64,000 bases of DNA from positions 1,550,001 to 1,614,000 of the forward strand of contig NZ_CP023344.1 of assembly GCF_002310495.1 (NCBI RefSeq), read 5' to 3'. Position numbers and translations under genes: made by a program. Below are positions 9,896-15,436 of this stretch, one piece after another. The first letter of the stretch is position 1. The number at the start of each line of letters is the position of its first letter. Source of the DNA: Nibricoccus aquaticus. Lineage in GTDB: Bacteria; Verrucomicrobiota; Verrucomicrobiia; Opitutales; Opitutaceae. The notes below the pieces were generated by a model. The model worked only from the letters and a program-made list of their open reading frames with translations, made no database searches and was not told the origin of the DNA.

Positions 9896-10855
9896 ATGCC
9901 TCGCTTCCCCCTCACCGACCACTGCGACGGCTCCCGCTTCTTCAACCCCGGCGCCCCACCGCTCCCGCACTTCGGCAAAGTCCTCCGCTGGCGCCTCACC
10001 CGCCGCGTCCCCGACTGGCTTCCCGTCTCCATCACCCCGCGCATCGCCCCACACGCACCTCCCGCTGACTCCCCCGCCGTCACCGCCACCTGGGTCAACC
10101 ACTCCACCTTCCTCCTCCAGTTCGCGGGACTCACGATCATCACCGACCCCGTCTTCAGCGAACGCATCGGCCTCCTCGGCAAAATCGGTCCACGCCGCAT
10201 CCACGCCCCCGGCCTCGCCTTCGAGTCCCTCCCGCGCATCGACGCCATCCTCCTCAGCCACGACCACTACGACCACTGCGACCTACCCGCGCTCCGCCTC
10301 CTCGCCCGCGCCCACGACCCGCTCATCATCGCCCCCCTCGGCTTCCGCCCCCTCCTCCGCCGCGCGAAACTCACCCGCATCGTCGAACTCGACTGGTGGC
10401 AAACCCACGCACTCGAAAACGCCACCATCACCTTCACCCCCGCCCAACACTGGTCCAACCGCCTCACCGGCCCCCGCTGCGGACGCCTTTGGGGCGGCTT
10501 CATGATAACCACCCCCGCCCGCCGCGTCTTCTTCGCCGGCGACACCGGCTATCACCCCGCGATCTTCCACGACATCGCCACCCGCCTCGGCCCCCCCGAC
10601 CTCTCCCTCCTCCCCATCGGTGCCTACGAACCCCGCTGGTTCATGCGCGACCAGCACGTCAACCCCGCCGAAGCCGTCCAAATCCACCGCGACCTCCATT
10701 CCCGCCTCAGCGTCGGCATGCACTGGGGCACCTTTCAACTCACCGACGAACCCCGCCTCGCCCCACCCGCCGACCTCTGCAAATCCCTAGCAGAGGGTAG
10801 GATCGCGCCCGATTTATTCCGAGTCATGGAACCCGGCCAGCACCTCACCGTCTGA
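9896..10855 (+). CDS. metallo-beta-lactamase-fold hydrolase, NAPE-PLD/UlaG-like
   Basis: A 319-residue metal-dependent hydrolase. Metal ligands are visible as SHDHYDHCD (HxHxDH, near residues 121-127), an Asp in FFAGDTGYHP and a His in MHWGTFQLTDEP. The N-terminal part (FNPGAPPLPHFGKVLRWRLTRR) and WVNHSTFLLQFAGLTIITDPVFSERIGLLG resemble bacterial homologues of N-acyl-phosphatidylethanolamine phospholipase D. Substrate is uncertain: phospholipid or phosphodiester. No signal peptide is seen, so it is likely cytoplasmic. Confidence 0.85.
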   Translation: MPRFPLTDHCDGSRFFNPGAPPLPHFGKVLRWRLTRRVPDWLPVSITPRIAPHAPPADSPAVTATWVNHSTFLLQFAGLTIITDPVFSERIGLLGKIGPRRIHAPGLAFESLPRIDAILLSHDHYDHCDLPALRLLARAHDPLIIAPLGFRPLLRRAKLTRIVELDWWQTHALENATITFTPAQHWSNRLTGPRCGRLWGGFMITTPARRVFFAGDTGYHPAIFHDIATRLGPPDLSLLPIGAYEPRWFMRDQHVNPAEAVQIHRDLHSRLSVGMHWGTFQLTDEPRLAPPADLCKSLAEGRIAPDLFRVMEPGQHLTV

Positions 10856-11126: not shown

Positions 11127-12743
11127 ATGCTCGGCCTCACCGCCGCGCTGGCCGCCGCCGCGCACGCCAAAGAGCGTAACCTCTGGCCCCTCTGGGTCGG
11201 CCAGCTCCAGGAACCCACGGCTCAAGAAACCCAAAACGCCGCCACGCCCTCCGCCTCCGCCCTGCTCGCGGCCCTCTCCCCGCTGCCCTCTTCCGAGTCC
11301 GCCCCGGTCAACTCCTGGACCTCCGCCGGCCCCTTCCTCTTCAGCCAGCCGCTCCCCACCGAGCCCCCGCGCCTCGACACCGCCGTCCGCGTCTCCGGCT
11401 TCCGCCCCTTCTACGTCCAAAAAACCGACGCCACCGGCCGCGTCCTCAACGCCTACGTCCTGCCTCCGCTTTTTCAATACACCTACTCGCCCTTCGGCAG
11501 CCGCTGGAAAATCTTCTCCCTCATCAACCGCGAGTCGCCCTCCGCCAACCACGTCACCGGCCCCGCCTCCCGCGAACGCACCGCCTTCGAAGTCTGGCCC
11601 TTCTACTTCTCCCGCCAGACCGGCAACCCCGAGACCTCTTACCGAGCCCTCTTCCCGCTCTACGGCAACGTCACCTACCGCTTCGGCCTCGACCGCTGGT
11701 CCTGGGTCGTCTTCCCGCTCTACGGCCGCTTCGAAAAAAACGGCGTCACCACCACCACCGCCCCCTGGCCCTTCATCAAAGTCCTCCGCGGCCAGGGCAA
11801 CTCCGGCTTCGAGCTCTTCCCCCTCTTCGGCTACCGCGCCAAACCCGGCGAATACCGCGAACAGTTCTACCTCTGGCCCCTCATCTACAAGAACGAGAAA
11901 AACCTCTCCGCTCCGCAGCCTGACATCCGCCAGGGCTTTCTCCCATTCTACGCCAGCACCATCGACGAAAACTCCGCCAGCAAAACCTACCTCTGGCCTT
12001 TCTTCGGCTGGTTCGACCGCACTGCACCCCGCCAGTATCACGAAACCCGCTACTTCTGGCCCCTCTTCGTTCAAGGCCGTGGCGACGACCGCCACGTCAA
12101 CCGCTGGGCTCCGTTCTACACCCACTCCTCCGGCAAAGGCGTCGAAAAAACCTGGCTCCTCTGGCCCCTCTGGCGCCAGCACATCTCCGACGAAGGCCCG
12201 ATCATCCAGACCAAACGCCAGATCCTCTACTTCGTCTACAATTCCACCGGGCAGCGCAGCGCCACCAGCACCACCTCCGCCCCCGCGCACAAAACCCACC
12301 TCTGGCCCCTCTTCACCACTTGGGATAACGGCGCCGGCCGCCGCCAGATCCAGGCCCTCAGCCCCCTCGAAGTTTTTTTCCCTCACAACGAAACCATCCG
12401 CACCGTGTACAGCCCGCTGTTCGCGCTCTACCGCTACGACCGCTCGTCCGCGGAAAATTCCCGCCACTCCCTCCTCTGGAATCTCGTCACCTGGAAACGC
12501 GCCCCCCAGCAGCGCGAATTTCATCTCGGCCCCCTCCTCGGCATCGAAAAACGCCCCGCCGAAAAACGCGTCGCCCTCCTCGCCGGTGTGATCGGCTTCG
12601 ACCGCACCGCCACCCGCGGCTGGCGCCCCTTCCTCTTCAAATTCAAACGCCGCCCCGCCCCGGCGATCATCAGCTCCGCCGCTCAGTCCGCGCCTGCGCC
12701 TTCCGAGTCCGACCTACTCGCTACTTCCGCCGCCCAACCATGA
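11127..12743 (+). CDS. exported aromatic WPL/FPL-repeat protein, first gene of the mla operon
   Basis: About 538 residues beginning MLGLTAALAAAAHAKERNLWPLW. A GTG at 11055 or a TTG at 10980 would add basic residues before the hydrophobic stretch, so the start is uncertain. The body repeats short aromatic motifs every 25-40 residues: LWPLW, VWPFYF, LFPLYG, VFPLYG, LFPLFG, LWPLI, LWPFFG, FWPLF, LWPLW, LWPLF. The alternating pattern suggests a beta-strand-rich, possibly outer-membrane, protein. I know no named family. Its stop overlaps the mlaE start (ATGA), implying translational coupling and a role in the same lipid transport system. The 271 bp before it show no gene. Confidence 0.6.
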   Translation: MLGLTAALAAAAHAKERNLWPLWVGQLQEPTAQETQNAATPSASALLAALSPLPSSESAPVNSWTSAGPFLFSQPLPTEPPRLDTAVRVSGFRPFYVQKTDATGRVLNAYVLPPLFQYTYSPFGSRWKIFSLINRESPSANHVTGPASRERTAFEVWPFYFSRQTGNPETSYRALFPLYGNVTYRFGLDRWSWVVFPLYGRFEKNGVTTTTAPWPFIKVLRGQGNSGFELFPLFGYRAKPGEYREQFYLWPLIYKNEKNLSAPQPDIRQGFLPFYASTIDENSASKTYLWPFFGWFDRTAPRQYHETRYFWPLFVQGRGDDRHVNRWAPFYTHSSGKGVEKTWLLWPLWRQHISDEGPIIQTKRQILYFVYNSTGQRSATSTTSAPAHKTHLWPLFTTWDNGAGRRQIQALSPLEVFFPHNETIRTVYSPLFALYRYDRSSAENSRHSLLWNLVTWKRAPQQREFHLGPLLGIEKRPAEKRVALLAGVIGFDRTATRGWRPFLFKFKRRPAPAIISSAAQSAPAPSESDLLATSAAQP

Positions 12744-13492
12744 AAAACCTCAACACCCTGCTCGACGCCTTCGGCAGCGCGTTGCTCCTCACCGGCCGCG
12801 CCTTCGCCACGCTGCCCAGCGCCCCGCGCATCCTCAAGCGCGTCGTCGAACAGGCCTTCCTCGGCGGCTACGCCTCCCTGTGGATCGTCACTGTCCTCAG
12901 CTTTTTCATCGGTGCGGTGCTCGCCCTCCAGGCCGGCATCACCCTGAAAGATTTCGGCGCGAAGCAACTCATCGGCACGCTCGTCGGTGAATCCCTCGTG
13001 CGCGAACTCGGCCCCCTCATGGTCGCCATCCTCCTCGCCGGCCGCGTCGGCTCCGCCATCACCGCCGAGCTCGCCTCCATGAAGGTGTATCAGGAAATCG
13101 ATGCGCTCGTGACCATGAACATCCCCCCCGAGCGCTTCCTCGTCCTTCCCCGCCTGCTCGCCGTCCTCATCTACATGCCGGTGCTCACCATCATCGGCGT
13201 CGTCGTCGGCTGGTTCGGCGGCGCCGTCGTCTGCAAATACGTCGCCGAAATCGGCGTCGAACCATCGCAATACTTCCAAAGCCTCCGCGCCTACATGACC
13301 GTCAGCAAGGTCATGGACGGCCTCATCAAAGCCGAGATCTTCGGCTTCGTCATCATCCTCATCGCCTGCAACACCGGCCTGCGCACCACCGGCGGCCCGC
13401 GCGAAATCGGCCACGCCGTCACACGCTCCGTCGTCTTCTCCCTCGTGGCCATCCTCGTGCTCGATTACTTCATCACCAAAGCCCTCGCCTGA
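12740..13492 (+). CDS. mlaE: MlaE-family ABC transporter permease
   Basis: Inner-membrane permease of an MCE/Mla-type phospholipid transporter. 250 residues with about five to six hydrophobic segments. The family signature is ELGPLMVAILLAGRVGSAITAELASMKVYQEIDAL, followed by MNIPPERFLVLPRLLAVLIYMPVLTI and GGPREIGHAVTRSVV near the C-terminus. It overlaps the preceding gene and the next by 4 bp each, so the operon is translationally coupled. Confidence 0.92.
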   Translation: MKNLNTLLDAFGSALLLTGRAFATLPSAPRILKRVVEQAFLGGYASLWIVTVLSFFIGAVLALQAGITLKDFGAKQLIGTLVGESLVRELGPLMVAILLAGRVGSAITAELASMKVYQEIDALVTMNIPPERFLVLPRLLAVLIYMPVLTIIGVVVGWFGGAVVCKYVAEIGVEPSQYFQSLRAYMTVSKVMDGLIKAEIFGFVIILIACNTGLRTTGGPREIGHAVTRSVVFSLVAILVLDYFITKALA

Positions 13493-14304
13493 TGAAAAAA
13501 GCCATCATCCAAGAACGCAGCAGTTGCGCCGGCACCGCCCGCCCGCCCGTCGGCGTCGAGGTCTCCGGCCTCTCTAAAAACTTCGGCACCCAGCGCGTGC
13601 TCAAAGACATCTCCCTCACGGTGAAGCCCGGCGAGATCTTCACCATCATGGGCCCCTCCGGCTCCGGCAAAAGCGTCCTCCTGCGCCAGATCGCCGGCCT
13701 CGACCAGCCCACCAAAGGCACCGCCCGCATCAACGGCCTCGACCCCGCCGATCCCGACACCCGCGACCGCTTCGCCATCGCCCTCGTCTTCCAGGCCGGC
13801 GCGCTCTTCAACTCCATCTCCGTTTACGACAACCTCGCCCTCTACCTCCTCGAACACCGGCTCTGCCCGAAAAAGGAAATGCGCGACCGCGTCATGCGCG
13901 CGCTCAAAATCCTCTCGCTCGAAAACGCCGTGAAGAAATTCCCCTCCGAGCTCTCCGGCGGCATGAAGAAACGCGTCGCCATCGCCCGTGCCCTCGTCAT
14001 GGAGCCTCAACTGCTCCTCTACGACGAGCCCACCTCCGAACTCGACCCCGTCATGTCCGCCACGATCACCGAGATCATCGCGACCCTGAAAACCGAATTC
14101 AACGTCACCAGCATCGTCGTCTCCCACGACCGCGACCTCGCCCTCACCATCTCCGACCGCGTCGCCCTCCTCATGAAAGGCGAGCTCCGCGCCCTCTGCT
14201 CCCCGGCCGAACTTCGCAAAGTCGAAGACCCCGCCGTGAAAGACTTTTTGAATCCCACCATCGATCTTAAAAAACCACGCTACCAGCAATTGGAGTCATC
14301 ATGA
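13492..14304 (+). CDS. mlaF: MlaF-family ABC transporter ATP-binding protein
   Basis: Cytoplasmic ATPase that powers the MlaE permease. 270 residues. Walker A GPSGSGKSVL (residues about 55-64), Q-loop VFQAGALFNSISVYDN, ABC signature LSGGMKKRVAIARAL, Walker B LLLYDEPTSELDP and H-loop VVSHD are all intact. GAL-FNS after the Q-loop is typical of MlaF rather than of other ABC ATPases. Its start overlaps the mlaE stop and its end overlaps the mlaD start. Confidence 0.94.
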   Translation: MKKAIIQERSSCAGTARPPVGVEVSGLSKNFGTQRVLKDISLTVKPGEIFTIMGPSGSGKSVLLRQIAGLDQPTKGTARINGLDPADPDTRDRFAIALVFQAGALFNSISVYDNLALYLLEHRLCPKKEMRDRVMRALKILSLENAVKKFPSELSGGMKKRVAIARALVMEPQLLLYDEPTSELDPVMSATITEIIATLKTEFNVTSIVVSHDRDLALTISDRVALLMKGELRALCSPAELRKVEDPAVKDFLNPTIDLKKPRYQQLESS

Positions 14305-15296
14305 ACCAGAACCAAATGACCGCCCGAGTGGGCCTGTTCTTCATCATCGGGCTGGCCCTCATCTGGGTCACCTTCGAAGCCCTCCACAACGGCCGCTTCT
14401 CCACCAAGGAGGGCTACACCGTCACCGCCGCCTTCTCCTCCCTCAAAGAACTCAAGGCCGGCAACGACGTCCGCATGGCCGGCGTCCAGATCGGCACCGT
14501 CGAGAAAACCCGCCTCACCGGCGGCAAGGCCGAAGCCGTCCTCCGCATCAGCAACGAGGTCCAGATCGCCCAGGACGCCACCGCCATCATCGCGATGGCC
14601 GGCCTCCTCGGCGCCAACTACATCTCCCTCGACCTCGGCAAACCCGACGCCGGCACCGTTCCTTCCGGCGGACAGCTCCGCACCAAGGACGTCGCCGACC
14701 TCAACCAGATCATCGGCGACCTCGGCAACCTCGGTCAGGAAATCAAAAGCACCCTCGGCCAGATCAGCGGCTCCATGGGCTCCGGTTCCGAAGGCGGCGG
14801 CGGCATCTTCCAAAAAATCGACAAGCTCATCACCGATAACAGCGCCAAGATCACCGAAACCACCGGCAATCTTGAAAAAATCACCGCCCAGATCCGCTCC
14901 GGCGAAGGCACCCTCGGCAAACTCATCTACGACCAGGCCGCCTACGACCAGCTCCTCGCCACCGTCACCGAAATCAAAGCCGCCGCCACCGACGCCCGCG
15001 CGTTCATGACCGACACCAAAGACATCATCGCCCAGGTGAAAAGCGGCCAGGGCGCCCTCGGCGTCCTCCTCTACGACCAACCCACCGCCGACAACCTCCG
15101 CGTCACCGTGAAGAACGTCCGCGAAGTCTCCGACAAGTTGAACGACCCCAAGAGCACCTTCGGCCAGCTCATCACCAACGACAACCTCGCCAAAGACATG
15201 CAGAGCACCCTCCGCAAAGTGGACCGCGCCATGGACGGCCTCGGCGACCAGGGCCCCATCACCGCCGTCGGCGTCGCCGCCAGCGCCCTCTTCTAA
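14301..15296 (+). CDS. mlaD: MlaD-family MCE domain protein
   Basis: Inner-membrane-anchored periplasmic lipid-binding subunit. 331 residues: an N-terminal membrane anchor (VGLFFIIGLALIWVTFEAL, about 11-29), one MCE domain (VTAAFSSLKELKAGNDVRMAGVQIGTVEK to GLLGANYISLDLG) and a long C-terminal helical tail. The tail repeats GEGTLGKLIYDQAAYDQL, GQGALGVLLYDQPTADNL and STFGQLITNDNLAKDM. Such tails may build a trans-periplasmic tube. No mlaB, mlaC or mlaA is present; the WPL-repeat protein may substitute at the outer membrane. Confidence 0.9.
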   Translation: MNQNQMTARVGLFFIIGLALIWVTFEALHNGRFSTKEGYTVTAAFSSLKELKAGNDVRMAGVQIGTVEKTRLTGGKAEAVLRISNEVQIAQDATAIIAMAGLLGANYISLDLGKPDAGTVPSGGQLRTKDVADLNQIIGDLGNLGQEIKSTLGQISGSMGSGSEGGGGIFQKIDKLITDNSAKITETTGNLEKITAQIRSGEGTLGKLIYDQAAYDQLLATVTEIKAAATDARAFMTDTKDIIAQVKSGQGALGVLLYDQPTADNLRVTVKNVREVSDKLNDPKSTFGQLITNDNLAKDMQSTLRKVDRAMDGLGDQGPITAVGVAASALF

Positions 15297-15398: not shown

Positions 15399-15436
15399 AT
15401 AGGTCCTATAGGTCGCATCCGACCTATAGGACCTAT
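15399..15436. repeat. perfect 17-bp inverted repeat
   Basis: ATAGGTCCTATAGGTCG and its exact reverse complement CGACCTATAGGACCTAT flank CATC. The + strand continues TTTCTTTT, so it could end transcription of the mla operon. The arms are themselves internally repetitive (CCTATAGGT), unlike ordinary terminators. Confidence 0.7.

Follow-up and report, generated by a model that had tools for sequence, protein, structure and literature searches.

A putative exported beta-sheet protein encoded with MlaEFD transporters seems to stand in for MlaA and MlaC in many Verrucomicrobiota

A four-gene operon in Nibricoccus aquaticus

We analysed a 64,000-nucleotide stretch of the Nibricoccus aquaticus genome (NZ_CP023344.1, positions 1,550,001 to 1,614,000; hereafter the window), in which a gene for a motif-rich protein, here called the WPL protein, precedes mlaE, mlaF and mlaD (Table 1). 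The permease, the ATPase and the MCE-domain protein that form the core of an MCE/Mla ABC transporter lie in one operon, and all four genes are chained by overlaps. Open reading frame (ORF) coordinates bear out an earlier description of this DNA made from its letters alone (the original prediction), according to which a protein of about 538 residues shares an ATGA with mlaE, and mlaE, mlaF and mlaD likewise overlap. That description also held mlaA, mlaB and mlaC to be absent; this stands for MlaA and MlaC, for which the whole genome gave no match (PF04333 and PF05494, with a positive E. coli control), the MlaB part not having been searched. The WPL protein seems to be a previously undescribed exported beta-sheet protein, found in many Verrucomicrobiota, that takes the place of MlaA and MlaC.

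Ten or so motifs of the LWPLW/FPLYG type had been reported in this protein, and a count of [WF]P[LFIY] agrees: 11 occurrences, where 10,000 shuffled sequences have 1.25 on average and never more than 7. Hydrophobic turns total 21 if GPF, APF, LWNL and similar motifs are counted, a classification of our own, and no tandem repeat was found in the DNA of the gene. The window protein gave nothing above the cut-off in Pfam, NCBIfam or PHROGs, and its Pfam matches do not include PF03886 (PqiC-like). A family profile of 21 rows found no match among the sequences of solved structures; Pfam returned a single weak and irrelevant match, in one member, for the 21 homologue rows, and no match for four distant members. 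A search of plasmids gave no match, and no description of a WPL-like protein appeared among the matches listed in open-licence PMC literature. The nearest named homologue, from Opitutaceae bacterium EW11, is 51% identical.

The WPL protein is predicted to be exported through a Sec signal. Homologues begin with Sec-type signals as judged by eye, and a rough signal pattern fits 53 of 60 family rows that start with M. Because the ATG at 11127 gives a signal peptide without basic residues and homologues start earlier, the true start may lie upstream, for example at GTG 11055, 24 codons before that ATG. Some distant members are predicted to carry a lipoprotein signal instead: a lipobox-like site occurs in 15 of 98 distant members linked to mlaE, about 13 of them convincing by eye, and none has Asp at +2. 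The +2 lipoprotein sorting rule is that of E. coli and may not hold in these bacteria.

Table 1. Positions of the WPL operon and adjoining features within the window
Feature	Position	Strand	Remarks
WPL protein gene, 538 residues	11127..12743	+	apparently exported, predicted all-beta, without known family; start possibly further upstream
mlaE, permease of MCE ABC transporter	12740..13492	+	PF02405 3e-72; start overlaps WPL stop, ATGA at 12740
mlaF, ATPase	13492..14304	+	PF00005 ABC_tran 4.1e-34; conserved gene order
mlaD: transmembrane helix, single MCE domain and some 180 residues with a mainly helical prediction	14301..15296	+	PF02470 2.7e-17
MlaD C-terminal tail GPITAVGVAASALF-COOH	15252..15293	+	among the MlaDs compared, tail type only in WPL-linked ones
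End of putative Sec-type signal peptide (...AAAAHA|KE), read from ATG 11127	11127..11168	+	from sequence and homologues
Terminator-like hairpin, 17 pairs then T-rich	15399..15436	+	3' of mlaD; consensus match only
NAPE-PLD homologue (N-acyl-PE phospholipase D), upstream neighbour	9896..10855	+	4qn9 E 1.4e-63

Linkage to mlaE, the MlaD tail and complementarity with MlaA and MlaC

Among 38 relatives from the order, each of another genus and with all candidates scored, 21 carry a WPL homologue, and mlaE is the next gene downstream in 19 of these. For named genomes we took the best 80 of 179 loci and counted mlaE as following if it starts at most 600 bases from where the WPL match ends; this is so in all 80. 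In these loci mlaF is visible 78 times and mlaD 75 times, a few of the stretches being too short to show them. Junctions were measured in 77 loci, with the exact ATGA overlap in 33, the genes one base apart in 32, and gaps of 171 and 413 bases in two. A wider sample of the phylum (387 genomes, with at most four WPL candidates scored per genome, so that negatives may hide copies) gave a WPL match in 172 genomes. One locus was examined in each of 146 of these, and mlaE lies directly downstream in 127 (29/30 and 98/116); the remaining 19 comprise 2 loci at a contig end and 17 true exceptions. Linkage of WPL genes to MCE genes in other genomes, on which the original prediction depended, is therefore widespread, with exceptions.

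In a tree of 83 MlaE rows, 32 of them WPL-linked (the window, 10 of the 80 named loci, one order locus and 20 distant loci) and 51 unlinked, a single branch divides all WPL-linked rows from the others, with one label change, at a support of only 71. WPL-linked MlaE from the family and order is 54–79% identical to that of the window (46% in one genome, G027), and identity falls as low as 33% in distant clades; in 28 WPL-negative relatives, 27 of which have an MlaE match, it is 25–40%. No WPL gene lies beside MlaE in any of the 30 loci examined, of 43 MlaE places, in WPL-negative genomes. Divergent MlaE and the lack of WPL neighbours together indicate that the WPL-type operon is apparently missing whole from these relatives.

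WPL-family genes away from mlaE were seen at L236:7699-9240 and 15 other distant loci, the L236 copy carrying a lipobox-like LLSGC, and genes of this kind may represent a separate lineage within the family that has a different role. Two Opitutales genomes (G036, locus L217; G032, locus L218) have WPL genes without mla genes in the stretch examined, and the G032 copy ends early.

The MlaD encoded with the WPL protein has a distinctive C terminus. At 331 residues the window MlaD is of the 'long' type, with helices predicted to residue 312 followed by about 19 residues. The structural model is confident mainly in the transmembrane helix and the MCE region, and therefore speaks neither for nor against a needle or any structure of the tail; it contains no strands after residue 129, and so no fused barrel, in a region of low confidence. 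All 73 family MlaDs that were read end in LF. For the tail comparison we used 64 of those 73 together with the window MlaD, 65 from the family in all, and 82 MlaDs from the 98 distant linked loci, the remaining distant ones not being readable to the stop. All 147 end in F (134) or L (13), and P[ILVM]x9-11[FL]-COOH fits 141 of them; charged residues among the last 12 average 0.28 in the family and 0.01 in the distant linked MlaDs. The corresponding mean is 3.4 in unlinked MlaDs, none of which has an F/L-type, nearly uncharged tail (0/17, read from 20 WPL-less loci picked by hand and not a random sample). At the level of sequence, the operon, its conservation and the MlaD tail that co-occurs with it are evident.

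The distribution of WPL genes is complementary to that of MlaC and MlaA. In the order set, MlaC is present in 12 of 38 genomes and MlaA in the same 12; 20 genera have WPL only, 11 MlaC only, 1 both (the draft genome G023, contaminated to 3%) and 6 neither (Fisher p 1e-4). The 63 listed Opitutales of the phylum sample comprise 35 with WPL only (one of them, G203, marginal at E 8.6e-4), 19 with MlaC only, 1 with both (G183, a partial match at E 5.5e-12) and 8 with neither (p 6e-9). Of the WPL genomes, G385 has an MlaC match below the cut-off, and G299 has MlaA without MlaC. Phylum-wide, WPL occurs in 8 of 46 MlaC genomes versus 164 of 341 others (p 6e-5), an exclusion weaker than in Opitutales, and in 21 of 152 MlaA genomes versus 151 of 235 others (p 6e-24), the latter co-occurrence having been tallied by eye, with the MlaA domain often part of a long fused ORF. 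This complementarity lends indirect support to the original suggestion that the WPL protein does the job of the missing outer parts.

Predicted fold of the WPL protein

An AlphaFold2 model built on 81 sequences predicts an all-beta WPL protein (mean predicted local distance difference test score 88.7, predicted template modelling score (pTM) 0.79) of about 45 short strands with one notable helix at 422-432, in keeping with the original prediction, which expected strands and not a soluble or helical structure. The predicted strands are 4–8 residues long, mostly 5–6, and the WPL motifs form turns. Through most of the protein, hydrophobic WPL-type turns alternate with polar turns in the order of the connections. 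Judged from that order rather than from coordinates, the WPL turns would all lie on one edge of the ribbon or sheet.

Covariation provides a second view of the motifs. In 184 sequences (effective number 162), with the model used only for turn positions, the mean z at zero offset is 0.38 for WPL turns and 0.56 for polar turns, and it becomes negative 3 to 5 residues away; these values are reached by 5 of 2000 circular shifts for WPL turns and by 0 of 2000 for polar turns. Because covariation is centred on both kinds of turn, each WPL is taken to be a turn between short strands and not to lie mid-strand. The long-range signal bearing on closure of the sheet or on a meeting of WPL turns is weak.

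Structural comparison returned matches to parts of single-layer sheets, with root-mean-square deviations often above 8 Å; no whole-protein match stands among the matches listed, an absence that proves nothing. The single-layer sheets of OspA, MORN1 and the CPAP G-box are, like the WPL model, meanders of short hairpins, and an OspA mutant aligns over 166 residues at 4.3 Å (Z 8.6); the alignments, however, are only partial, with Z at most 10.1, no sequence match and Foldseek template modelling (TM) scores of 0.03–0.26. The best Foldseek rows are IFT-A and LRP proteins (E 2.8e-6 at best, TM about 0.1), which contain propellers. Lipid bridges of the TamB/AsmA type gave no Pfam match and are not among the structural matches listed, which excludes nothing.

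A proposed partner at the outer membrane

Our preferred interpretation, to which we assign a probability of roughly 0.6, is that the WPL protein is the outer-membrane-side component, a dock or lipid receiver, of a four-gene MlaEFD lipid transporter. Its hydrophobic WPL edge would be embedded in the inner leaflet of the outer membrane or rest on it. MlaD, presumably hexameric as other MCE proteins are, would dock with its tails on that edge or on the ribbon, the terminal-Phe tail offering a precise candidate contact. Powered by MlaF, phospholipid would move in one direction or the other between the channel of MlaD and the outer membrane, with the WPL protein performing the work of MlaA and MlaC. 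Contact of the WPL protein with MlaD, its outer-membrane location and its contact with lipid are all presumed in this scheme.

Published systems provide precedents: an MlaEFD needle may have a barrel fused to it (PMC10665443) or be paired with a PqiC-like partner (PMC12436622). The minimal MlaEFD of Veillonella parvula (PMC10665443) resembles the window in having no MlaA or MlaC, a long MlaD and overlapping mlaF and mlaD; its MlaD, however, bears its own C-terminal barrel, whereas the window encodes a barrel-less MlaD and a separate WPL protein. The Mpc system, MpcEFDA (PMC12436622), shares with the window MlaE and MlaF, a 331-residue MlaD-like needle and an exported protein, separately encoded, as its partner at the outer-membrane end, but the partner in the Mpc and PqiC (PMC10897342) systems is a PqiC-like lipoprotein and the WPL protein has no PF03886 match. 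With the canonical E. coli MlaFEDB-C-A the window has the MlaE, MlaF and MlaD families in common, but MlaA and MlaC were not found in the genome.

The same genome holds a second MlaE system near C1:2.905 Mb (L154:7383-11576), which resembles the Mpc arrangement (PMC12436622): MlaE in a 443-residue ORF, an ATPase, an MlaD of 355 residues ending in ...LERNPSSLITGRKGPQ, and a lipobox-bearing PqiC-like protein. The sole PF03886 match in the genome, at C1:2908063, lies within this second operon and not in the WPL operon. With both operons in one genome, the two MlaDs are neighbours of exported proteins of different kinds. Read most simply, MlaEFD would be an engine shared by several systems and fitted with an exchangeable outer-membrane end, be it MlaC/MlaA, a fused barrel (PMC10665443), a PqiC-like ring (PMC10897342) or the WPL protein, and the presence of a WPL operon or of MlaA/MlaC within one family amounts to a natural swap. 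PMC10665443 describes the MlaDs of the PVC group as entirely without barrel and allows for unidentified proteins. It leaves open by what route long MlaEFD systems that have neither MlaA and MlaC nor a barrel connect with the outer membrane, and for a large part of one phylum the WPL protein is a candidate partner.

Several observations weigh against the outer-membrane reading. Two of the 21 order copies (L018 and L019), 16 of 114 assessable distant WPL genes and the profile-checked L133 are not beside mlaE. WPL coexists with MlaC in the 8 of 46 MlaC genomes, and with MlaA in the 21 of 152 MlaA genomes, counted above, and all these counts and p values treat genomes as independent of shared ancestry. 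The MlaD tail is of low confidence in the model. A lipobox pattern appears in only 2 of 60 Opitutaceae rows, both doubtful, which makes anchoring of the WPL protein in the outer membrane putative only. The shape of its sheet, open or closed, could be that of a ribbon or coil or of a propeller-like ring.

A more specific form of the proposal is tentative. The WPL protein may be a lipid conduit of a new type, in which some 45 short strands make up a beta ribbon (about 200 Å long if straight, by our own estimate) and the regular WPL edge forms a continuous hydrophobic rail or ring. The terminal-Phe tails would let it cap the MlaD needle, and it would convey phospholipid towards the outer membrane or away from it with no barrel involved.

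We consider it unlikely that the WPL protein is a soluble periplasmic lipid carrier, an MlaC-like shuttle not fixed at the outer membrane, even though most Opitutaceae rows have a signal without a lipobox and WPL replaces MlaC as much as MlaA. A long MlaD of 331 residues may span the periplasm and need no shuttle, on the precedent of the needles described in PMC10665443 and PMC12436622. Some distant WPL members, moreover, are lipoprotein-like. Single-layer sheets of the OspA, MORN and G-box kind act as scaffolds in other proteins, and the partial matches to them, together with the tight gene coupling, would suit an assembly or scaffolding factor that holds or aligns the MlaD needle, or fixes it to the cell wall, with no lipid contact; this too seems improbable, since the regular hydrophobic WPL turns and the near-exclusivity with MlaA and MlaC would fit a lipid role better.

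The original prediction had envisaged an outer-membrane barrel or bridge. The all-beta model and the signal-peptide-like start support it in part, and a bridge would be conceivable; a classical transmembrane barrel fares poorly. Porin, LptD and usher rows do occur among the structural matches (Z 6.0-6.9), but the strands of 4–8 residues fall short of the roughly 9 or more of a transmembrane barrel, a comparison that holds for the prediction only and in which closure is not visible. Covarying pairs, moreover, centre on WPL turns and polar turns, placing WPL outside the middle of strands, and a variable tail follows the last strand, so that we regard a transmembrane barrel as quite improbable. 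Most improbable of all is a conserved neighbour of unrelated envelope function, co-transcribed by accident, for which the unlinked WPL copies might speak but which phylum-wide linkage and the co-occurring MlaD tail oppose.

Around the operon, the hairpin downstream of mlaD is a possible operon end. A NAPE-PLD-like gene is the immediate same-strand neighbour upstream of the WPL gene in 29 of the 71 named loci that extend far enough, which suggests a phospholipid context, though not a constant one. In distant Verrucomicrobiota the MlaA domain often lies within ORFs of 600–880 residues. Two such MlaA ORFs (L318:2550-4763 and L319:2317-4284) have a GxSxG motif in the C-terminal half, one of them with a weak, below-cut-off alpha/beta-hydrolase match in Pfam, and are possible MlaA–lipase fusions.

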